41,827 nt of DNA from a virus: positions 1 to 41,827 of IMG/VR virus record IMGVR_UViG_3300036782_000148. One strand, 5' to 3'. Numbering within the stretch: position 1 is the stretch's first letter; every line of letters begins with the position of its first letter. A model generated the notes under the pieces. The model saw only the letters and a list, made by a program, of their open reading frames with translations, searched no databases and was not told the origin of the DNA. Made by a program: the position numbers and the translations under genes. Shown here in pieces: positions 1,166 through 39,765 of the stretch.

Positions 1166-1463
1166 CCTTGTCCCCTTGCGCAACTGTGAATATCTAGTGA
1201 GATTCTGTCACGCGCCGTTCATGATCACTTTACGGACTCTTGACGCGATCTTGGGCAACACGGACATACAGGCGATCTTTCCGTGAGCTTTATGAACACA
1301 ACTTCAATAGATCGTTGAAAACTCAAGGAAGTTGACGCCCTGTGATCTGCATCACGCACCCATGGCGCAACCCGTTGATGGTTACAGGTGACGCTCATTC
1401 GACTACAAACAGTGAGGACCACCTAGGAACGTCCCTAGGTGGTCCTACTGCAAGCGCAGTACG
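1166..1463 (-). promoter_or_regulatory. Non-coding leader region, AT-rich, with palindrome copy 1
   Basis: No supportable gene is seen here. The stretch is visibly richer in A and T than its surroundings. It contains an inverted repeat with arms CAACTTC/GAAGTTG (about 1298-1333) and, at 1415-1446, an extended palindrome around repeat copy 1. It probably holds the promoter for the 788-1165 operon, but no convincing -35/-10 pair stands out. The AT-rich dyad could also be a protein-binding or recombination site. Confidence 0.4.
1420..1441. repeat. Palindrome copy 1 (one change)
   Basis: Half-site CACCTAGGAAC, right half carries one change (GTCCC for GTTCC). Flanks AGGAC/GTCCT extend the dyad to 1415-1446. 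Lies after the stop of the 1464-1709 gene, so it could also act as a hairpin at the mRNA end. Confidence 0.9.
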
Positions 1464-1709
1464 TTACTTGGCGATCAGTTCGCCCCAACCCCCGCCGGTC
1501 GCGCGGTAAAGGGAAACGGCCTCGCCGGTCTCGCGAGTGAAGCACTGGTACGCGTCGGCCACGTTCTCAAAGACGAACTTGTGAACGCCGACGTTCACCC
1601 AGTAGTTAACCGCCGCAGCCTTAGCGCGGTACGCCCGCTCTTCCCAGCTACGGGGCAGGTCACCCGGAACGGTGTACAGCGCGCGGTCCGCCTCGGTGAG
1701 CTTGATCAT
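1464..1709 (-). CDS. Unknown 81-aa protein
   Basis: ATG at 1709 preceded by GGAAGGAA at good spacing. The protein is largely helical by composition (SWEERAYRAKAAAVNYWVNVGVHKFVFENVADAYQCFTRE) and ends in a Gly/Trp-rich tail. No family recognised. It is a single-gene unit: palindrome copy 2 and a copy of the leader element lie upstream, palindrome copy 1 lies downstream. The self-contained arrangement is shared by the next five genes. Confidence 0.75.
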   Translation of the reverse strand: MIKLTEADRALYTVPGDLPRSWEERAYRAKAAAVNYWVNVGVHKFVFENVADAYQCFTRETGEAVSLYRATGGGWGELIAK

Positions 1710-1728
1710 TTCGATTCCTTCCGTTTCC

Positions 1729-1754
1729 CTCGCGGCGTGTTCCGCTCGGTGTGG
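1729..1754 (-). promoter_or_regulatory. Leader element copy 1 (diverged)
   Basis: Diverged copy of the leader element (consensus on the minus strand GCCGAACGG, AACAC, GCCGAACGG) located 20-45 nt upstream of the start at 1709. Confidence 0.6.
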
Positions 1755-1786
1755 TTGAACCGTAGCACGTGCGTGCCGTGCTGCAC

Positions 1787-1808
1787 CACCTAGGAACGTC
1801 CCTAGGTG
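1787..1808. repeat. Palindrome copy 2 (one change)
   Basis: Same variant as copy 1 (GTCCC in the right half). Sits between the terminator of the 1924-2088 gene and the start of the 1464-1709 gene. Confidence 0.9.
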
Positions 1809-1837
1809 CTATCCGCTGTACGCCCGTCTGCGGGCAT

Positions 1838-1876
1838 GAAATAGCCCCGCCCGACCACGGGGCCGAACGGGGCTGT
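1838..1876 (-). terminator. Rho-independent terminator of the 54-aa gene
   Basis: On the minus strand AGCCCCG...CGGGGCT forms a stem followed by ATTTC. It lies 48 nt after the stop of the 1924-2088 gene. Confidence 0.7.
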
Positions 1877-1923
1877 GAGGCTGCGAGAGGGGCCGTCAGG
1901 CGCTCTGGCGACCCCCCACCAGC

Positions 1924-2088
1924 CTAGGCGGTCAGCCGGGCAAGCTCCGCACGCCAGTAGGCGAGTTCCCGCGCCTGCTCAAAGTAGATGGGCTGACCGA
2001 CCCACCCGCACGCCTCATAGCCGGACAGCGCCCGCTCAGTGTCGGCAACGTAGGTGCGGCACATCTCGATTTCCTGAGCCTTGGTCAT
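1924..2088 (-). CDS. Small 54-aa protein
   Basis: ATG at 2088 with GGAAGG at proper spacing; TAG at 1924. The protein (starting MTKAQEIEMCRTYVADTERA) looks all-helical with two Cys and many Arg/Glu, suited to a short coiled coil or helical hairpin. No family recognised. It has its own sigma70-like promoter, leader element and terminator, so it is transcribed as a single-gene unit within the small-gene array. No palindrome lies directly upstream of this one. Confidence 0.75.
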   Translation of the reverse strand: MTKAQEIEMCRTYVADTERALSGYEACGWVGQPIYFEQARELAYWRAELARLTA

Positions 2089-2106
2089 TGTGGTTCCTTC
2101 CGGTCA

Positions 2107-2133
2107 CCCCTCGGGCGTGTTCCCTCGGCGGTG
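2107..2133 (-). promoter_or_regulatory. Leader element copy 2 (diverged)
   Basis: Diverged copy keeping GAACACGCC, located about 20-45 nt upstream of the 2088 start and downstream of the -10 box. Confidence 0.6.
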
Positions 2134-2139
2134 AGGCCA

Positions 2140-2168
2140 TCTAAACACGAGAAACCCCCCGGTCGCAA
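2140..2168 (-). promoter_or_regulatory. Sigma70-like promoter for the 54-aa gene
   Basis: Minus strand -35 TTGCGA (2163-2168), 17-nt spacer, -10 TTTAGA (2140-2145). The -35 box overlaps the terminator hairpin of the upstream gene. Confidence 0.5.
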
Positions 2169-2180
2169 CCGAGGGGTTCT
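2150..2180 (-). terminator. Terminator of the 81-aa gene
   Basis: Minus strand AACCCCTCGG...CCGGGGGGTTTC stem with a short T-tract, about 20 nt after the stop at 2201. Confidence 0.7.
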
Positions 2181-2200
2181 CATACTTAAGGCGTAGCCGA

Positions 2201-2446
2201 TCAGGGAATGATTGCTTCAGTGGGGGAGACGACCCGCACGTCAATGAGCATCACGCCACGCTCAGCGGCCACACGCTCTACAACCTCGCGCACCTCGGGC
2301 AGCAACTCGTCAAGGTGGTTGGTGGTCACGACCGGAGTGGTCTTGGACCGGCCAAGCGGGTTGGCCTTACGGCGGGGACGGGGGGTGTTGGCAACCTCGC
2401 CCGTGAGCCGGACCTGATCCCGGAAACCTCCGCGACGGTTGTTCAT
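2201..2446 (-). CDS. Unknown 81-aa basic protein
   Basis: ATG at 2446 with AGAGGAAA upstream; an upstream in-frame GTG was rejected because the leader element and promoter lie there. The N-terminal 35 residues are Arg/Asn/Pro-rich and probably disordered (FRDQVRLTGE, RPRRKANPLGRSK); the C-terminal half (ELLPEVREVVERVAAERGVMLIDVRVVSPTEA would fold as helix plus strands) is compact. A nucleic-acid-binding role would fit the basic tail, but that is only inference. It is a single-gene unit with promoter, palindrome copy 3, leader element and terminator. Confidence 0.75.
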   Translation of the reverse strand: MNNRRGGFRDQVRLTGEVANTPRPRRKANPLGRSKTTPVVTTNHLDELLPEVREVVERVAAERGVMLIDVRVVSPTEAIIP

Positions 2447-2465
2447 ATTCTTTCCTCTCGTCTCT

Positions 2466-2490
2466 GCCGTTCGGCGTGTTCCGTTCGGCG
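2466..2490 (-). promoter_or_regulatory. Leader element copy 3 (canonical)
   Basis: Two copies of GCCGAACGG separated by AACAC on the minus strand. It starts about 8 nt downstream of the predicted transcription start and ends about 20 nt before the start codon. Confidence 0.7.
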
Positions 2491-2499
2491 ACAAACAGA

Positions 2500-2529
2500 A
2501 CAGTACACATGCGCGCCGCTCGTGTCCAA
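2500..2529 (-). promoter_or_regulatory. Sigma70-like promoter for the 2201-2446 gene
   Basis: Minus strand -35 TTGGAC (2524-2529), 18-nt spacer, -10 TACTGT (2500-2505). The palindrome copy 3 ends only 2 nt from the -35 box, as an operator would. Confidence 0.6.
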
Positions 2530-2531
2530 TC

Positions 2532-2553
2532 CACCTAGGAACGTTCCCAGGTG
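2532..2553. repeat. Palindrome copy 3 (one change)
   Basis: One change (CCCAGG for CCTAGG). Abuts the -35 box of the promoter at 2500-2529. Confidence 0.9.
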
Positions 2554-2569
2554 CTCATCCCCGGGCACG

Positions 2570-2603
2570 ACGTAGGGCCCCGGTCGAAACCGGGGCCCTA
2601 CGT
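2570..2603 (-). terminator. Perfect 14-bp hairpin after the 106-aa gene
   Basis: Arms ACGTAGGGCCCCGG and its exact complement with a 6-nt loop, 13 nt after the stop at 2616. No T-tract follows, so termination is inferred from position and stability. Confidence 0.6.
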
Positions 2604-2615
2604 CTAAGCGCCTAC

Positions 2616-2936
2616 TTACTCGCCGAACCGACCGGCGCGGCACTGCTCGCTGTCGCACGTGGCGTTCTCAAACAGCCCATCACAGTCCATCTCCCACGTA
2701 CGGGGGCGGGAACCACAGTACATGCACGCGTTGGCGGTCCACTCCTTCACGTCCCGGATCACCTGAATAAAGTTGGCGAGTTCGGGAGTCTTGCGCGTCT
2801 CGCGGATGATAAAGGCAGCGTGGCTTTCGGTGATCTTGCTTTCAAGCTCGCGGCTCACGTAGTACGCGTAGTAAGTCACCTCAACGTCCGTCGCGGTCTT
2901 GCCGGGGAAGTAGTTGATTCCCTTGGTGAGGCTCAT
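2616..2936 (-). CDS. Unknown 106-aa protein with C-terminal zinc-ribbon-like cysteines
   Basis: ATG at 2936 with AAAGGCGAG upstream. Residues 1-65 look like a mixed alpha/beta region (VEVTYYAYYVSRELESKI, FIIRETRKTPELANFIQVI). The C-terminal 40 residues carry CMYCG and CDSEQC, plausibly a structural zinc site. Function unknown. Single-gene unit with a strong promoter next to palindrome copy 4, a leader element, and a 14-bp hairpin downstream. Confidence 0.8.
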   Translation of the reverse strand: MSLTKGINYFPGKTATDVEVTYYAYYVSRELESKITESHAAFIIRETRKTPELANFIQVIRDVKEWTANACMYCGSRPRTWEMDCDGLFENATCDSEQCRAGRFGE

Positions 2937-2955
2937 GCGCTCGCCTTTCGTTCAC

Positions 2956-2981
2956 CCGCTCGGCGTGTTCCGTGCGGTGTG
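2956..2981 (-). promoter_or_regulatory. Leader element copy 4 (diverged)
   Basis: Keeps GGAACACGCCGAGCGG; located 20-45 nt upstream of the 2936 start. Confidence 0.6.
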
Positions 2982-2986
2982 CCCTC

Positions 2987-3016
2987 ACTATAGGCATACG
3001 GCGCGACGGGATGCAA
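2987..3016 (-). promoter_or_regulatory. Sigma70-like promoter for the 106-aa gene
   Basis: Minus strand -35 TTGCAT (3011-3016), 18-nt spacer, -10 TATAGT (2987-2992). It is the best -10 box in the array. Palindrome copy 4 lies 3 nt upstream of the -35 box. Confidence 0.7.
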
Positions 3017-3019
3017 CAC

Positions 3020-3041
3020 CACCTAGGAACGTTCCTAGGTG
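3020..3041. repeat. Palindrome copy 4 (perfect)
   Basis: Perfect 22-bp copy directly upstream of the promoter at 2987-3016 and downstream of a terminator. Confidence 0.95.
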
Positions 3042-3050
3042 CTCAAACGG

Positions 3051-3079
3051 AAAAACCCCCGGCATGGTCGCCGGGGGTC
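3051..3079 (-). terminator. Rho-independent terminator of the 43-aa gene
   Basis: Minus strand ACCCCCGGC...GCCGGGGGT followed by TTTTCC. Confidence 0.8.
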
Positions 3080-3094
3080 TCTCTAGGCTAGGGC

Positions 3095-3226
3095 TTACTC
3101 GGCGTACGCGCCGGTACCCTCGAACTCATCGCGGCACTCGGGCTCACAGAACAGATCACCGGGAGCGGCGGGGGCATCCTCACAGTTGGCACACGGACGG
3201 CCGCTGATCATGTCGAAAAAGTCCAT
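3095..3226 (-). CDS. Small 43-aa acidic zinc-binding-like protein
   Basis: ATG at 3226 with GAGGAGAG upstream; TAA at 3095. The protein (MDFFDMISGRPCANCE...) is acidic and carries C-x2-C and C-x3-C (CANC, CEPEC), enough for one zinc ion. It resembles the many tiny treble-clef/zinc-ribbon proteins of actinophages, but no function is known to me. It is a single-gene unit with its own leader element and terminator; a weak promoter (TTATCG, 19 nt, TACTGT at 3275-3305) overlaps the upstream gene's end. Confidence 0.75.
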   Translation of the reverse strand: MDFFDMISGRPCANCEDAPAAPGDLFCEPECRDEFEGTGAYAE

Positions 3227-3242
3227 CGTCTCTCCTCGGGTC

Positions 3243-3270
3243 GCCGTTCGGCGTGTTCCGTTCGGCGTGG
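3243..3270 (-). promoter_or_regulatory. Leader element copy 5 (canonical)
   Basis: Canonical copy, GCCGAACGG, AACAC, GCCGAACGG on the minus strand, 17-44 nt upstream of the 3226 start. Confidence 0.7.
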
Positions 3271-3564
3271 TCACACAGTAGCACGCTCTTGCGTGTGCTC
3301 GATAACCTCACTCTTGTGCCGAGTGCGTATCAGCGTCCACCCGTCCGCGCGCAACTCCTTATGGAGCGGGCCGGTTATCTCGAAAACGGCATCAAGGTTC
3401 GGGAAGATCGTACGCGTCTCGTCCGGTTCCTCACCGTGCGTGCGGTCGATAAACGTAAGAGCCTTACGATCGTCGCCCGCCCGGTCGCTACGGCGTACGC
3501 GGATGATGAACCAATCCAGCGCGTCAGGGTCCGTCGCGCTCTGCCGTGACCATTCCCAATCCAT
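3271..3564 (-). CDS. Unknown 97-aa protein
   Basis: ATG at 3564 with AAAGGGG upstream. The protein begins MDWEWSRQSATDPDALDWFI and is highly charged; beta-like segments WFIIRVRRS, KALTFIDR, AVFEITGPLH and WTLIRTRH suggest a small alpha/beta fold. No family recognised. Single-gene unit downstream of palindrome copy 5 and leader element copy 6. A -10-like TAGGTT lies next to the palindrome so that the palindrome would cover the -35 region. Confidence 0.75.
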   Translation of the reverse strand: MDWEWSRQSATDPDALDWFIIRVRRSDRAGDDRKALTFIDRTHGEEPDETRTIFPNLDAVFEITGPLHKELRADGWTLIRTRHKSEVIEHTQERATV

Positions 3565-3581
3565 CGGTGCCCCTTTCGTTC

Positions 3582-3609
3582 GCCGTCCGGCGTGTTCCGT
3601 TCGGCATGG
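3582..3609 (-). promoter_or_regulatory. Leader element copy 6
   Basis: Near-canonical copy (one half GCCGGACGG) in the 5' leader of the 3271-3564 gene. Confidence 0.65.
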
Positions 3610-3624
3610 ATGAACCTAGCACAC

Positions 3625-3646
3625 CACCTAGGAACGTTCCTAGGTG
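3625..3646. repeat. Palindrome copy 5 (perfect)
   Basis: Perfect copy between the terminator of the 31-aa gene and the 3271-3564 gene. Confidence 0.95.
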
Positions 3647-3652
3647 CTACGA

Positions 3653-3687
3653 GAAAACCCCCGGCGGGCCGTAGCCAACCGGGGGTC
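3653..3687 (-). terminator. Rho-independent terminator of the 31-aa gene
   Basis: Minus strand ACCCCCGG...CCGGGGGT followed by TTTC, 11 nt after the stop at 3698. Confidence 0.75.
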
Positions 3688-3697
3688 ACTCATCTAG

Positions 3698-3793
3698 CTA
3701 GCGCTTGACCCAAACAAAGATATGGGCCCGCTTAGGGTGTCCGTCGCACGCCTTGCCGTGCGCCTTGCAGTACAACTCTCGAATCTCCGGCAT
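3698..3793 (-). CDS. 31-aa microprotein with Cys/His pattern
   Basis: ATG at 3793 preceded by AGGGAGG at optimal spacing; TAG at 3698. The product (MPEIRELYCKAHGKACDGHP...) has C-x2-H and C-x2-H, the spacing of a miniature zinc knuckle, then a basic-hydrophobic tail. Function unknown. It has its own palindrome (copy 6), a -10-like TTACTGT at 3836-3841 and a terminator, but lacks the leader element seen in neighbouring units. The strong ribosome site and private terminator make it a convincing gene despite its size. Confidence 0.7.
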   Translation of the reverse strand: MPEIRELYCKAHGKACDGHPKRAHIFVWVKR

Positions 3794-3863
3794 GTTGCCT
3801 CCCTTGTGGGCCCGCCCTTGTTGGCGTCGAGACCGACAGTAACACGACTCAGCGGGGAGGCAC

Positions 3864-3885
3864 CACCTAGGAACGTTCCTAGGTG
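3864..3885. repeat. Palindrome copy 6 (perfect)
   Basis: Perfect copy starting right after the TGA of the 3887-4069 gene and upstream of the 31-aa gene. Confidence 0.95.
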
Positions 3886-3886
3886 C

Positions 3887-4069
3887 TCAGGGTCGCGCGC
3901 CTACTAGCTCCGCCCGTCCCTGGAAAGGGTCCACGCGGATACCGGCAGCGTTCACAGCCTCAGCGGCAACGGCGATCACGTCGCCCCGATGCTGAGTTTC
4001 CGGTGCCGATAGGTCGAGTTGCACCACCTTGCACCCCGTAGGGAACTCCACACGCCACACGTTCCGCAT
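3887..4069 (-). CDS. Unknown 60-aa protein
   Basis: ATG at 4069 has a strong CAGGAGGGG site, which is why I prefer it to the upstream in-frame GTG at 4117. The product starts MRNVWRVEFPTGCKVVQLDL and includes an Ala/Val-rich helix (DVIAVAAEAVNAAGI). It looks like a small alpha/beta domain with two or three strands around one helix. Last gene of the ThyX operon, 54 nt after the deaminase stop. No family recognised. Confidence 0.7.
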   Translation of the reverse strand: MRNVWRVEFPTGCKVVQLDLSAPETQHRGDVIAVAAEAVNAAGIRVDPFQGRAELVGARP

Positions 4070-4123
4070 GACCCCTCCTGACTCTAGACGAACTCCCAGT
4101 GTCTCAAGTGAGCGCACCCGCTG

Positions 4124-4507
4124 TCAAACCGGCGTCACTACGCGTGCGATCCCTGCGGACTCAATTAGCGTCGCGCACTGTGGGCACGGTGCCCGCGTCA
4201 CGTACAGCGTAGACCCCGGTAGATCCTCGGGGCGTGCTCGCGTAATCGCGTTGAACTCCGCATGGTTTGCGGCACAGTTGGCATAGTTACTGTCCGGCGC
4301 ACAAGTCTCGCGGCTCATCTTCCCGCGCGGACAGTTACCGGCGCTAGCACACCCCGGGATACCGGCAGGCAAGCCGTTGTAGCCGGGGGTAACCCTGTGG
4401 TCCCGAGAGACCAACAGGGCCCCCACCTGTGCGCGTGTGCAGTCGGCGCGAGTAGCCGCCCACCCGGCACCAGCAAGGTAGTAGCTATCCCAATCCGGGC
4501 GCGTCAC
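4124..4507 (-). CDS. Deoxycytidylate (dCMP) deaminase-like protein
   Basis: A 127-aa zinc-dependent cytidine/deoxycytidylate deaminase. The signature is complete: the HAE motif (NCAANHAEFNAI, about residues 78-89) supplies the zinc His and the catalytic Glu, and PCPQC (about residues 107-111) supplies the two zinc cysteines. The family converts dCMP to dUMP, the substrate for thymidylate synthase, and ThyX lies in the same operon, so together they feed dTTP synthesis. The start is GTG at 4507 in a 4-nt overlap (GTGA) with the upstream gene. A further Cys cluster (CASAGNC, CAPDSNYANC) may bind a second zinc, as in phage dCMP deaminases. Confidence 0.9.
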   Translation of the reverse strand: MTRPDWDSYYLAGAGWAATRADCTRAQVGALLVSRDHRVTPGYNGLPAGIPGCASAGNCPRGKMSRETCAPDSNYANCAANHAEFNAITRARPEDLPGSTLYVTRAPCPQCATLIESAGIARVVTPV

Positions 4508-6122: not shown

Positions 6123-6144
6123 CACCTAGGAACGTTCCTAGGTG
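6123..6144. repeat. Palindrome copy 7 (perfect, extended to 34 bp)
   Basis: Flanks GGTGAC/GTCACC extend this copy to a perfect 34-bp palindrome at 6117-6150. It ends 17-22 nt upstream of the thyX ATG, leaving room only for the ribosome site. Confidence 0.95.
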
Positions 6145-6842: not shown

Positions 6843-7243
6843 TCCGGGGCGAGGTTCGCGGGTTCGTGTGCCCCGCCCTTGTAGAGCGGTGTCACGTGCA
6901 CGATTGCGCGCCACGCTTGCCCGCACCCGTTCCGGCAAGTGTTCGCTACCCCGGTCGCTTCCCAGTGGGCGACGAGTGCGCGGGGGTCGATAGGTTCGGC
7001 GGGCTCGCCGTGACCGTTGAGGCTGTGCCACAGGGTGTAAACCTCCTCGGTCTCTGTCAGGTGAGCGGCAACCCGTCGCCGGTACCGTCCCGCGCGGCTC
7101 TGAGCGCGCCTCTCAGCGGCGTTCTCGTCGCGGTAGGCCCGTACCCTGTCCGAGTTGCGCTTGCGCCACTCACGGCCGTACGCGGCTTTCGCTTCCGCGT
7201 GTATCGAGTGATACAGCGCGTGGTATTCGGTCCGGTCGCTCAC
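6773..7243 (-). CDS. HNH-like protein with degraded second half
   Basis: A 156-aa frame starting at GTG 7243 in a GTGA overlap with the sigma-like gene. The N-terminal third is a basic helical region (AKAAYGREWRKRNSDRVRAYRDENAAERRAQSR) typical of phage HNH proteins. A partial HNH core follows (CRNGCGQAWRAIVHVTPLYKGG, NLAPECGKATC) and the last 22 residues are low-complexity and look out of frame. The adjoining frame resumes a full HNH core, so the pair reads like a two-HNH protein interrupted by a frameshift near 6830-6860. Confidence 0.65.
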   Translation of the reverse strand: MSDRTEYHALYHSIHAEAKAAYGREWRKRNSDRVRAYRDENAAERRAQSRAGRYRRRVAAHLTETEEVYTLWHSLNGHGEPAEPIDPRALVAHWEATGVANTCRNGCGQAWRAIVHVTPLYKGGAHEPANLAPECGKATCSPAGAVAATATHRPSI

Positions 7244-8043
7244 TTGGTCAGCCCCGTAACCTTCGTGTAGCGGGTCTCAAAGCTCTTGTGAGCCTGCGAA
7301 CGCAGAACCTTGACGCTGCTAGGCGTGGTCCCAAGCTCCTGTGCAAGCTCCTCGCTCGCCTGCGCGTCGGTACCGAGGCACGGCACGGGGTCAATCCCGT
7401 ACGTGGCCTTGAGTATGTGAGCTTGCTTAGCCCCCATGCTGTCGATGACCGCGCGAACGGTCTTGATCTTTCGGTCTCGCTGGTCACGCGCAATGTCGGC
7501 AGCGTCAATGAGGTCATCCGGCACGCCGTAGTCAGACGCGAGCACGTCAGCGAGCGAGAAACCGTCATCGTCGCCGGTCGGGAGATCCAGCGAAACGGGG
7601 CCCTCCCAAGCCATACGCGCGGCGTTCGCACGGTCCGCACTCAGGCGACGGCCCTTGGGCGGGAGCGTCTGTGAAAGGCGCTCAGCAACGTCTATATCCC
7701 CGTTCGCTTCCTTGACCATGGCCGCGAACACCTTGATTGCGTCATGGTCAGCGCCGGTCGCCCCTGCGTTCTTTTCGTCGCGGGCAGCGTCGCGAACCTT
7801 GGCGTCAACGGTCTTGTACATGAACGCGTAGAACGCTTCCACGCTGTCACCGGTGAAGCGGGGGAGTCCTTCCCAAACCGCGATGCGGCCAACCTGTGCG
7901 AACTCGTCGCGCTGGTCTGCGCTTGCCCCCAGCTTGTAGGCGATGTTCGCGATTCGGGTTTCCATGGCCTTGACAACGTCGCCCGTGGCGGGAATGTCGT
8001 TGGTCTGAGCGGCCTTGATCGTGTCAAGCGTCAGGGTGTCCAT
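7240..8043 (-). CDS. Sigma70-family-like transcription factor
   Basis: A 267-aa protein. Residues 25-75 resemble sigma region 2 (RIANIAYKLGASADQRDEFAQ, GRIAVWEGLPRF, YAFMYKTVDAKVRDAARDE). The C-terminal 70 residues resemble region 4: a helix around MGAKQAHILKATYG and a helix-turn-helix ELAQELGTTPSSVKVLRSQAHKSF. The middle is a variable linker. Such proteins direct RNA polymerase to alternative promoters. ATG at 8043 has GGAAGGAAA upstream, excluding the long upstream in-frame extension. The 22-bp directional element lies 36-57 nt upstream and also precedes several replication genes, so it is a candidate target. An alternative is a non-sigma DNA-binding regulator. Confidence 0.65.
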   Translation of the reverse strand: MDTLTLDTIKAAQTNDIPATGDVVKAMETRIANIAYKLGASADQRDEFAQVGRIAVWEGLPRFTGDSVEAFYAFMYKTVDAKVRDAARDEKNAGATGADHDAIKVFAAMVKEANGDIDVAERLSQTLPPKGRRLSADRANAARMAWEGPVSLDLPTGDDDGFSLADVLASDYGVPDDLIDAADIARDQRDRKIKTVRAVIDSMGAKQAHILKATYGIDPVPCLGTDAQASEELAQELGTTPSSVKVLRSQAHKSFETRYTKVTGLTK

Positions 8044-8078: not shown

Positions 8079-8100
8079 TCAGTGAGTGAGTGGGTAAAGC
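8079..8100 (-). promoter_or_regulatory. Directional element copy 1
   Basis: Minus strand GCTTTACC, then CA, then CTCACTCACTGA. Lies 36-57 nt upstream of the sigma-like gene start. Confidence 0.65.
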
Positions 8101-8436
8101 CCGGAAGGGGCAGCCGCGTAGACACCTTGCGTGACGTGAGTCACAGCAGGTCGGAGCGACAGTGAAGACACGTCGCCCCATCCGGGTAGGTGCTCGGACG
8201 GGGCTACGCGTCGCCGTTTCGTCGTTGCAGGGACAACAAAACGCGCAAACGAAATCACTCGCAAGTGCGAACAGGGTTCGCATACAAGGTCATGACAGGC
8301 ACTGACATGACTTTCTAAGGCGAGGGGGCACCCCCTACCTTCGATCGCTCTTGGTGTACCGGGTCAAAGTTGCGAATCTCTTGATCATGTCCGGTTTGCC
8401 ATACTTACCAAACTGAAGTGGAAAAAAGTTGAGGAC
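8101..8436 (-). promoter_or_regulatory. Non-coding region upstream of the sigma-like gene, several dyads
   Basis: No supportable gene. It holds three dyads: a hairpin with 10-bp arms GCCCCATCCG/CGGACGGGGC (8175-8204), a 17-bp inverted repeat with 7-bp arms TGCGAAC/GTTCGCA (8266-8282), and a 23-bp interrupted palindrome with arms GTCATG-CAG/CTG-CATGAC (8289-8311). A GGGGGCACCCCC dyad follows at about 8325. The set fits an operator/leader control region; a replication origin is an alternative. Confidence 0.45.
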
Positions 8437-12866: not shown

Positions 12867-12890
12867 CCAGTGAGTGAGTCGGTAAAGCGT
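12867..12890 (-). promoter_or_regulatory. Directional element copy 2
   Basis: Minus strand CGCTTTACC, GA, CTCACTCACTGG. The element starts inside the last bases of the 14-bp hairpin at 12888-12924 and lies just upstream of the primase ribosome site. Confidence 0.65.
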
Positions 12891-15239: not shown

Positions 15240-15261
15240 CAGAGAGTGAGTCGGTAAAGCG
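15240..15261 (-). promoter_or_regulatory. Directional element copy 3
   Basis: Minus strand CGCTTTACC, GA, CTCACTCTCTG, directly after the exonuclease stop (15265) and 138-159 nt upstream of the Gp3-like start. Confidence 0.65.
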
Positions 15262-16120: not shown

Positions 16121-16142
16121 CAGTGAGTGAGCCGGTTAAGCG
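16121..16142 (-). promoter_or_regulatory. Directional element copy 4
   Basis: Minus strand CGCTTAACC, GG, CTCACTCACTG, upstream of the exonuclease gene. Confidence 0.65.
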
Positions 16143-17428: not shown

Positions 17429-18448
17429 TTACTTCCGCGCGCTGAGCTTAAGGGCGATCTCCTGAACCTTGCTGCTCAGCGCGAGCATCTGCGCCCGCAG
17501 CTTGTCCGCCTCAGCGTCGGTCAGTTCCTCAACCTTGATCTTGTCCAGCGCCTTAGTGTCGCGCTCAAGAGCGGCGGTCAGCTTCTCGGCGGGCGTCTTG
17601 GTCTCTGTCTCCTCGCCGTCGCCCTCTCCTTCACCCTCGCCCTCACCCTCGCCGGAACCCTCGCCGCCACCGTTGGCAAGCTCCTTAGCAGCCGCGCGCC
17701 GGTCCGCCGCAAGCTCCGCCTTGCTCTTGCGGTTGATCCCGTAGAACTCAAAGATCGTGTCCGACGGCTTAGCGTCCTCGGCGAGCGCTTCCGCAAGCTG
17801 CGGGAACAGGTCCCCGAACGTCACGCGGTCATCGTCCAGACCCCGCACGAACTCCGGGATGACTGCCGTCATCTGGTACTGAACCTTGTTCTGAAGCCCC
17901 TTCAGGAGTTCGTCAACGTCGGCGATCTCCGAGCGGTACCCCTGGGCCACGAGCTTGTGCGCTGCCGCAGTGTAGATGTTGTTTGCAAGATCCTTGGCCG
18001 CCTGACGCGTGCCCTTAAGGTCCGGCATCCCCTTCTTGTTGTAGATCCGCAGGCGACCGTCAAAGATCGCGCTAGCAACGGTCTTGGCCGCACTCTGCGC
18101 GTCAACCTCAGACTTGATGCCCTCGGCCACCCGGTCAGCGGCGTTGTCCACGATGTCCGCGTAACCCTCAATGGTGGTCACGTCCTCGGTGGGCTTGTGC
18201 ACGACCAGTTCAGCGGCATTCGCCTTGCGGTCCTTGGCGGACGCTACCGCTTCCTTGAGCCGCATGGACAGCGGGGCGCGCTTGTTGGCGCTGAGCTTCA
18301 GCAGCTCCGCATTAGCCTGCGCCATAAGGCTAGTGATCTGCTCGCCGTCGTCCTTGCTCAGCGTGCCGAGAACATCAATGATGTTCTCTACGTCCGCCTT
18401 GACCTGCGCGGGGTCAACCTCGGTCTTGGTCTCGGTCGCCTTAGCCAT
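17429..18448 (-). CDS. Unknown 339-aa protein with Gly-Glu linker and coiled-coil tail
   Basis: ATG at 18448 (MAKATETKTEVDP) follows CAGGAGGAAAAC, one of the best ribosome sites in the window. Residues 5-200 are helix-rich (ADVENIIDVLGTLSK, ADIVDNAADRVAEGI), with GRLRIYNKKGMPDLKGTR in the middle. Around residue 255 there is a long Gly-Glu repeat linker, then a charged C-terminal coiled coil. No family recognised. An in-frame open extension continues upstream to 18721, so a longer 430-aa product is possible. Strong own promoter beside palindrome copy 13 and own terminator suggest high, regulated expression. Confidence 0.8.
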   Translation of the reverse strand: MAKATETKTEVDPAQVKADVENIIDVLGTLSKDDGEQITSLMAQANAELLKLSANKRAPLSMRLKEAVASAKDRKANAAELVVHKPTEDVTTIEGYADIVDNAADRVAEGIKSEVDAQSAAKTVASAIFDGRLRIYNKKGMPDLKGTRQAAKDLANNIYTAAAHKLVAQGYRSEIADVDELLKGLQNKVQYQMTAVIPEFVRGLDDDRVTFGDLFPQLAEALAEDAKPSDTIFEFYGINRKSKAELAADRRAAAKELANGGGEGSGEGEGEGEGEGDGEETETKTPAEKLTAALERDTKALDKIKVEELTDAEADKLRAQMLALSSKVQEIALKLSARK

Positions 18449-18721
18449 GCTGTTTTCCTCCTGAGTGGTGGTGTTCGGGGTGAAAGCCTTTACGCAGTTC
18501 CCGCAGACGCGCAGGTTACCGTCTGCGACGTTAGCCGTCTTGACTTCCGTGCCGGTGCACAGTGACTTGCCAAGAGCAATAACGATGTGCGGGGTCTTGC
18601 CGTTGCCGACCATGCCAACCGTGGCACCGTGACCGAGCACATCCGAAACTGTAAGCGAACCCTGCACCCTGAACACCTTCTCTGATTCCGGCCGACCCCC
18701 TGTCGGCCTCACGTGGAACAC
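18449..18721 (-). other. In-frame upstream extension of the 339-aa gene / long leader
   Basis: Ninety-one codons upstream of the 18448 ATG are open in the same frame. The encoded stretch includes HIVIALGKSLCTGTEVK and LRVCGNCVKAF, a zinc-ribbon-like C...CxxC pattern, which suggests real coding. The promoter at 18720-18750 starts transcription near 18713, so the GTG at 18721 cannot be the start; inner GTG codons could serve. Either a small upstream product fused in frame, a longer isoform, or a non-coding leader of about 265 nt. Confidence 0.45.
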
Positions 18722-19842: not shown

Positions 19843-19864
19843 CAGAGAGGGAGCGGGTTAAGCG
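19843..19864 (-). promoter_or_regulatory. Directional element copy 5
   Basis: Minus strand CGCTTAACC, CG, CTCCCTCTCTG. It overlaps the holin TAA and lies 30-51 nt upstream of the kinase start, marking the shift from lysis genes to replication genes. Confidence 0.6.
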
Positions 19865-39743: not shown

Positions 39744-39765
39744 AAGAGAGTGAGTCAGTTAAGCG
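39744..39765 (-). promoter_or_regulatory. Directional element copy 6 (diverged)
   Basis: Minus strand CGCTTAACT, GA, CTCACTCTCTT. It is the only copy not upstream of a replication or nucleotide gene; it precedes tRNAs and the late operon. Confidence 0.55.

Follow-up and report, generated by a model that had tools for sequence, protein, structure and literature searches.

The window analyzed here is a 41,827-base stretch of DNA (positions 1 to 41,827 of IMG/VR virus record IMGVR_UViG_3300036782_000148) from a temperate Streptomyces phage, whose genes lie on the minus strand. Among named phages, the best relatives are the phiC31-like Streptomyces phages Sycamore, Shady and Shaeky, all of which carry serine integrases and belong to a temperate group now assigned to Colingsworthviridae (PMC12451628). 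An array of small minus-strand open reading frames (ORFs) of 31 to 106 amino acids (positions 1464 to 3793) lies downstream of the genes for thymidylate synthase and dCMP deaminase, in a stretch of small genes that in the relatives precedes the integrase. Six of these genes are each preceded by a copy of the same leader hairpin, and the array also contains promoters, terminator-like hairpins and operator-like palindromes that may be bound by a phage repressor. The genes, with their protein-family labels, are the following.

1464 to 1709, minus strand: F7, 81 amino acids; Shady homolog at 71%; preceded by the leader at 1720-1755
1924 to 2088, minus strand: F12, 54 amino acids; window only; preceded by the leader at 2100-2135
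2201 to 2446, minus strand: F0, 81 amino acids; present in 8 of 8 leader-bearing phages at 54-88% identity
2616 to 2936, minus strand: F6, 106 amino acids; Shady homolog at 54%
3095 to 3226, minus strand: F1, 43 amino acids, Cys-rich; homologs in six other leader-bearing phages
3271 to 3564, minus strand: F11, 97 amino acids; homologs in all seven others, elsewhere in the order (moved)
3698 to 3793, minus strand: possible seventh unit ORF, 31 amino acids; putative operator at 3864-3885, with TACTGT and a small GCC-AACAAG-GGC hairpin upstream

The start of F0 is placed at the ATG at 2446 rather than at 2494 because its leader lies within the longer ORF 2201-2494. The small proteins gave no credible match in Pfam and none in PHROG, no homolog was found for ORF 3698-3793, and a plasmid search with the array returned no match. 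F0 has an Arg-rich N-terminus and a poor AlphaFold2 prediction from four sequences (pLDDT 63); outside the eight leader-bearing phages it has no match in other phage records, and a search of 394 Streptomyces genomes, run without a positive control, did not find it. For F6, weak homologs occur in large, unrelated Streptomyces phages, which would fit a pool of genes open to exchange.

The leader hairpins in the array are listed below with their scores from R1, a covariance model built from 45 copies.

1720 to 1755, minus strand: F7 leader hairpin, 34.0 bits
2100 to 2135, minus strand: F12 leader hairpin, 41.1 bits
2459 to 2494, minus strand: F0 leader hairpin, 34.4 bits
2948 to 2983, minus strand: F6 leader hairpin, 31.1 bits
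3236 to 3271, minus strand: F1 leader hairpin, 40.0 bits
3575 to 3610, minus strand: F11 leader hairpin, 41.4 bits

Even a simple pattern finds five leaders in the array, compared with 0.29 expected in shuffled sequence. Altogether there are 61 copies, 57 in seven phages and four in an eighth, L285; these four, along with copies in L188/L189, are independent finds from outside the training set. With the covariance model, no copy was detected in phiC31, TG1, Nesbitt or Sebastisaurus, or in about 40 further contigs that encode a related dCMP deaminase. In Rfam 15, window positions 1200-4200 have no match above the gathering score and three weak matches below it. Within the element, GG..GCC and the AAC loop hardly vary, the loop being conserved in more than 90% of the 45 copies, and stem pairs switch between C-G and G-C. 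The stem shows 57 double-change cells; shuffling leaves 27.8 +/- 4.1 and sliding 6-22. Folding of single sequences gives modest z-scores (-1.2 to -2.8), as would be expected if nothing special were present and strong promoters were simply followed by GC-rich 5ʹ ends that fold by chance. However, chance folding is highly improbable given the conserved loop, the covarying stem and the restriction of the leader to array genes. No description of the hairpin was found in the literature searched, most subscription journals being outside its coverage, and the shared leader appears to be undescribed. A search of viral sequences for the leader with its GC-rich pattern CGGAACACGCCGNNCGG was set aside; among the matches listed, one per contig, most were due to chance. 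A second kind of leader, in which GTAAGCA soon after the -10 box replaces the hairpin, occurs at L185 10450-10840 and upstream of Shady 35686 and Shaeky 36024.

An automatic sigma70 promoter scan detected no site. Promoters are evident in a profile in which 51 units are lined up by their TANNNT -10 box: 39 of them have TTG with a gap of 16-19 nucleotides to that box, compared with 6, 0 and 0 in control windows. The -10 box, in turn, starts 8-10 nucleotides before the leader model in 48 of the 51. The promoter elements and terminator-like hairpins in the array are as follows.

1759 to 1764, minus strand: F7 -10 box, TACGGT
2500 to 2529, minus strand: F0 promoter, TTGGAC, 18 nucleotides, TACTGT
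2987 to 3016, minus strand: F6 promoter, TTGCAT, 18 nucleotides, TATAGT (-10 at 2987-2992)
3275 to 3280, minus strand: F1 -10 box, TACTGT
3613 to 3618, minus strand: F11 -10 box, TAGGTT
1843 to 1874, minus strand: terminator-like hairpin after F12, 14-base-pair stem
2152 to 2179, minus strand: terminator-like hairpin after F0, 12-base-pair stem
2569 to 2604, minus strand: terminator-like hairpin after F6, 16-base-pair stem, -35 kcal/mol, no U tail
3050 to 3083, minus strand: terminator-like hairpin after F1, 15-base-pair stem
3658 to 3685, minus strand: terminator-like hairpin after ORF 3698-3793, CCCCCGG/CCGGGGG

An earlier note on this DNA had proposed sigma70-like promoters for these genes, which the profile bears out, and had worked through one unit as an example. 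Every part of that example is present: -35 TTGCAT, an 18-nucleotide gap, TATAGT, the leader, gene 2616-2936 and the hairpin with its 16-base-pair stem. The note's view that most units have their own terminator agrees with the hairpins found; 3271-3564 lacks one. Between F7 and F12, window positions 1814-1900 hold about 85 nucleotides of conserved noncoding, terminator-like sequence with two hairpins, which is similarly placed within the arrays of six of the phages.

The predicted transcription start, 7 nucleotides after the -10 box, is the purine-rich position directly ahead of the first paired base, so that the transcript should begin with the hairpin. The fixed distance from leader to -10 could also be read at the DNA level, the leader being an activator site or a signal in the initial transcribed region whose inverted repeat reflects a dimeric DNA-binding protein; the palindromes nearby are, after all, DNA sites. 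A dimer site, however, would keep its arms and leave its center free, the opposite of what is observed, and the same loop occurs with differing stems inside one phage (e.g., GCC..GGG and GTCGG..CCGAC in L008). A DNA element is thus quite unlikely.

The palindrome CACCTAGGAACGTTCCTAGGTG occurs in 20 copies with at most three mismatches (0.00 expected), all intergenic and spread along the full length of the window rather than specific to the array. These copies and the repressor gene are located as follows.

1420 to 1441, no strand: operator-type palindrome after F7; in its extended form, an inverted repeat at 1415-1446, it can double as the F7 terminator
1787 to 1808, no strand: operator-type palindrome upstream of F7
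2532 to 2553, no strand: operator-type palindrome upstream of F0
3020 to 3041, no strand: operator-type palindrome upstream of F6
3625 to 3646, no strand: operator-type palindrome overlapping the F11 promoter
3864 to 3885, no strand: operator-type palindrome upstream of ORF 3698-3793
6123 to 39484: 14 further copies, starting at 6123, 8437, 10361, 13642, 15173, 17354, 18768, 21244, 23798, 27232, 30651, 34312, 36529 and 39463
17429 to 18721, minus strand: repressor gene of the phiC31 c family (PF25746 Phage_Repressor_c, E 8.5e-45, far above cutoff), with a match to the Nesbitt immunity repressor

Palindromes number 9-24 per genome (window 20, Sycamore 21, Shady 24, Shaeky 24, phiC31 15, TG1 15), compared with 0 for a reversed-consensus control. 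Each relative has its own palindrome sequence in the same layout (CACCTAGCAACGTTACTAGGTG in Shady, CACCCCTTGACGTTAAGGGGTG in Sycamore and CACACCTTGACGTTTAGGGGTG in Shaeky), and further sequences are those of phiC31 (AACCTACTCACGTGAGTAGGTT), TG1 (AAGGCACTCACGTGAGTGTCTT) and Nesbitt (CACCACCTCACGTGAGGTGGTG). Many palindromes sit 3ʹ of genes that correspond from phage to phage, phiC31 being among them. By coordinate comparison, sites after the major capsid, tape measure, primase and polymerase genes match among phiC31, Sycamore, Shady and Shaeky, the window being compared by overall layout only. The eighth leader-bearing phage, L285 (3188-5190), has another palindrome specificity, CACCTCCCAACGTTGGGAGGTG.

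On the simplest reading, which invokes known biology, the palindromes are putative operators or stoperators of a phiC31-type repressor. The conserved inverted repeats (CIRs) of phiC31 bind its repressor, and phiC31 early terminators are described as lacking U tails. The window resembles phiC31 in having a homologous repressor family, intergenic palindromes, several of them probably after the same genes, and a compact early region rich in hairpin terminators; it differs in palindrome sequence and in its leader hairpin, of which phiC31 has no copy. A single repressor with sites throughout the genome is reported for Streptomyces phage R4 and relatives (PMC10276819), and a repressor-stoperator system likewise for L5 (PMC6550527). 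The window shares with R4 and the L5/Bxb1 mycobacteriophages one repressor, many genomic sites and phage-specific site sequences. Sites of the L5 type lack symmetry and mostly point the same way, whereas those of the window are 22-base-pair palindromes without that asymmetry. The operator system of the window is a new specificity within a known kind, and from the palindrome data the phiC31 immunity family gains several repressor specificities, each of which predicts an immunity group.

A palindrome adjoining a unit ends 10-42 nucleotides before the leader, over or beside the -35 region, where repressor, once bound, would prevent initiation. Homology and layout together give good support to repressor control of the array. 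The array described in the earlier note is real in its small ORFs of 31-106 amino acids, six leaders and promoters, but the palindrome, with copies throughout the window, is not an array feature. The claim that most units have a palindrome of their own applies to four of the six leader genes, there being none at 1924-2088 or 3095-3226.

Copies of the exact 22-base-pair phage palindrome also occur in Streptomyces chromosomes, in 17 of 394 genomes (L012-L040; L237-L266), mostly at the apex of a terminator hairpin right after tRNA-Pro(CGG) or tRNA-Arg(CCT). Orthologous tRNA-Pro terminators have other apexes, which resemble phiC31-type (CCTACTCA) or Shady-type sites.

Comparison of eight phages reveals how the units are arranged; 57 units encode 28 protein families.

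Sycamore: F1-F8-F2-F11-F0-F3-F9
U2547: F1-F4-F2-F11-F0-F5-F3-F10
Shady: F1-F2-F11-F6-F0-F3-F7
U33000: F1-F4-F2-F11-F0-F3
Shaeky: F4-F2-F0-F5-F11-F3-F10
U2873: F1-F4-F11-F0
U2671: F8-F1-F2-F11-F0-F5-F3-F9
Window: ORF 3698-F11-F1-F6-F0-F12-F7

A backbone order, F1-F2-F11-F0-F3, is partly conserved, and whole units are inserted or lost, with a few moved; in the window, F11 has moved ahead of F1, and F2 and F3 are lost. Both the single-gene units with control elements of their own and the modular region that the earlier note proposed are supported, the latter by this backbone with patchy insertions, and the invariant gene set that would have spoken against it is not what the relatives show, their gene sets being different. 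For a given gene, the leaders found in different phages resemble one another more than expected by chance (2 of 1000 label shuffles are as high), which indicates that a gene tends to move along with its promoter and leader. Leaders inside one phage are also more alike than background (0.63 versus 0.56), and some homogenization within a genome is likely. Family F3 (L041 34919-35479 and homologs), present in most relatives, has an N-terminal membrane-like segment and a Pro/Thr-rich tail, and its product is possibly a surface or exclusion protein.

The movement of units fits a reading in which an accessory region is put together at the palindromes and leaders, acting as sites of recombination, as the earlier note proposed, or as mobile repeats. 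Homologous blocks, too, tend to run from a leader to a palindrome or the next leader (e.g., window 1749-1415 with Shady and 3599-3249 with Sycamore), but alignments would run into the repeated leaders regardless. Moreover, the palindromes also stand across the late genes at conserved positions, and no link to a recombinase was found. As genome-wide repressor-type operators, the palindromes do not mark exchange sites by their presence, and recombination at the repeats, though possible, is improbable. The note's further suggestion, host-takeover or anti-defense functions, is not backed by any credible Pfam or PHROG match among the small proteins.

A comparable arrangement is known from Cluster K mycobacteriophages, in which the Start Associated Sequences (SAS/ESAS), about half with inverted repeats, lie just upstream of the start codons of many nonstructural gene families; the authors found little support for an mRNA hairpin (PMC3203893). 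The leaders likewise precede the start codons of many nonhomologous, nonstructural genes. However, their sequence differs, their stem covaries and their distance from the promoter is fixed. The 13-base-pair SAS GGGATAGGAGCCC, which in Cluster K stands at start codons, has one match with two mismatches, which is chance level.

Taken together, these features suggest that the array is an immediate-early regulon of separate units, silenced by the repressor and opening with a 5ʹ stem-loop that is protective, recognized by a protein, or both (probability about 0.72). In a lysogen, the phage repressor would bind the 22-base-pair palindromes; those overlapping or abutting the -35 regions of small genes would block initiation, and those elsewhere would serve as stoperators or terminators. 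Upon infection or induction, host sigma70-type RNA polymerase would transcribe each small gene separately, each transcript starting at, or one base before, the AAC-loop stem-loop and ending at a hairpin terminator. Since the hairpin begins at the predicted 5ʹ end, shielding these short messages from 5ʹ-end-dependent decay is its most economical role, and conservation of the loop suggests that a recognition step is involved as well. If the loop is bound by a protein, hairpin recognition could place all units under common control. With its own promoter, leader and usually terminator, a unit could be gained, lost or moved without disturbing its neighbors.

Several observations weigh against this regulon. 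Simple 5ʹ protection needs no conserved loop, which leaves a purely protective role incomplete. Pairing fails in the outer stem (columns 6-31 and 7-30) in 26-29 of 44 copies, and the shuffle controls keep the kinship between copies, so that part of the covariation could be inherited. Furthermore, two leader genes without an operator and one without a terminator mean that some units may be co-transcribed.

Hairpins near the 5ʹ end of early phage transcripts are familiar from lambdoid boxB/nut and HK022 put, which the leader resembles in hairpin position but not evidently in sequence. Were the leader a nut/put-like antitermination site, a phage protein on the hairpin would let polymerase read through the unit terminators and palindromes. 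A short conserved-loop hairpin does open the predicted early transcripts, with terminators following, and F0, Arg-rich at its N-terminus, matches no phage record beyond the leader-bearing phages, all eight of which have it. However, read-through is unneeded where each unit has its own promoter, and no homology to antitermination proteins was found. F0 is itself an array member, whose co-occurrence with the leader is expected anyway, and its predicted structure is poor. Antitermination is therefore unlikely. A wider version, in which a phage-encoded RNA-binding regulator, possibly F0, recognizes the 5ʹ hairpin and controls all units in trans, is doubtful; the hairpin would then be a portable RNA tag through which newly gained accessory genes enter a post-transcriptional or antitermination regulon already in place.

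The phiC31-group Streptomyces phages are standard genetic tools, yet little has been written on how their small early genes are controlled. For the repressor-silenced regulon proposed here, a conserved 5ʹ hairpin on dozens of unrelated small genes in eight phages would make immediate-early genes findable from sequence alone. The leader hairpin is a candidate regulatory RNA, and the array offers a concrete case of plug-in units that travel with their control elements.

Apart from the array, a second repeated promoter-like box, GCTTTACCGACTCACTCACTG, occurs on the minus strand at 8080-8101, 12868-12889, 15240-15261, 16121-16142, 19843-19864 and 39744-39765, and partly resembles a repeated phiC31 box, GGGTTGCCGACTCCCTTACTG. 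It is possibly served by the sigma factor that the phage itself encodes.

7240 to 8043, minus strand: phage sigma factor gene (Sigma70_r2 and phrog_15865; start uncertain)

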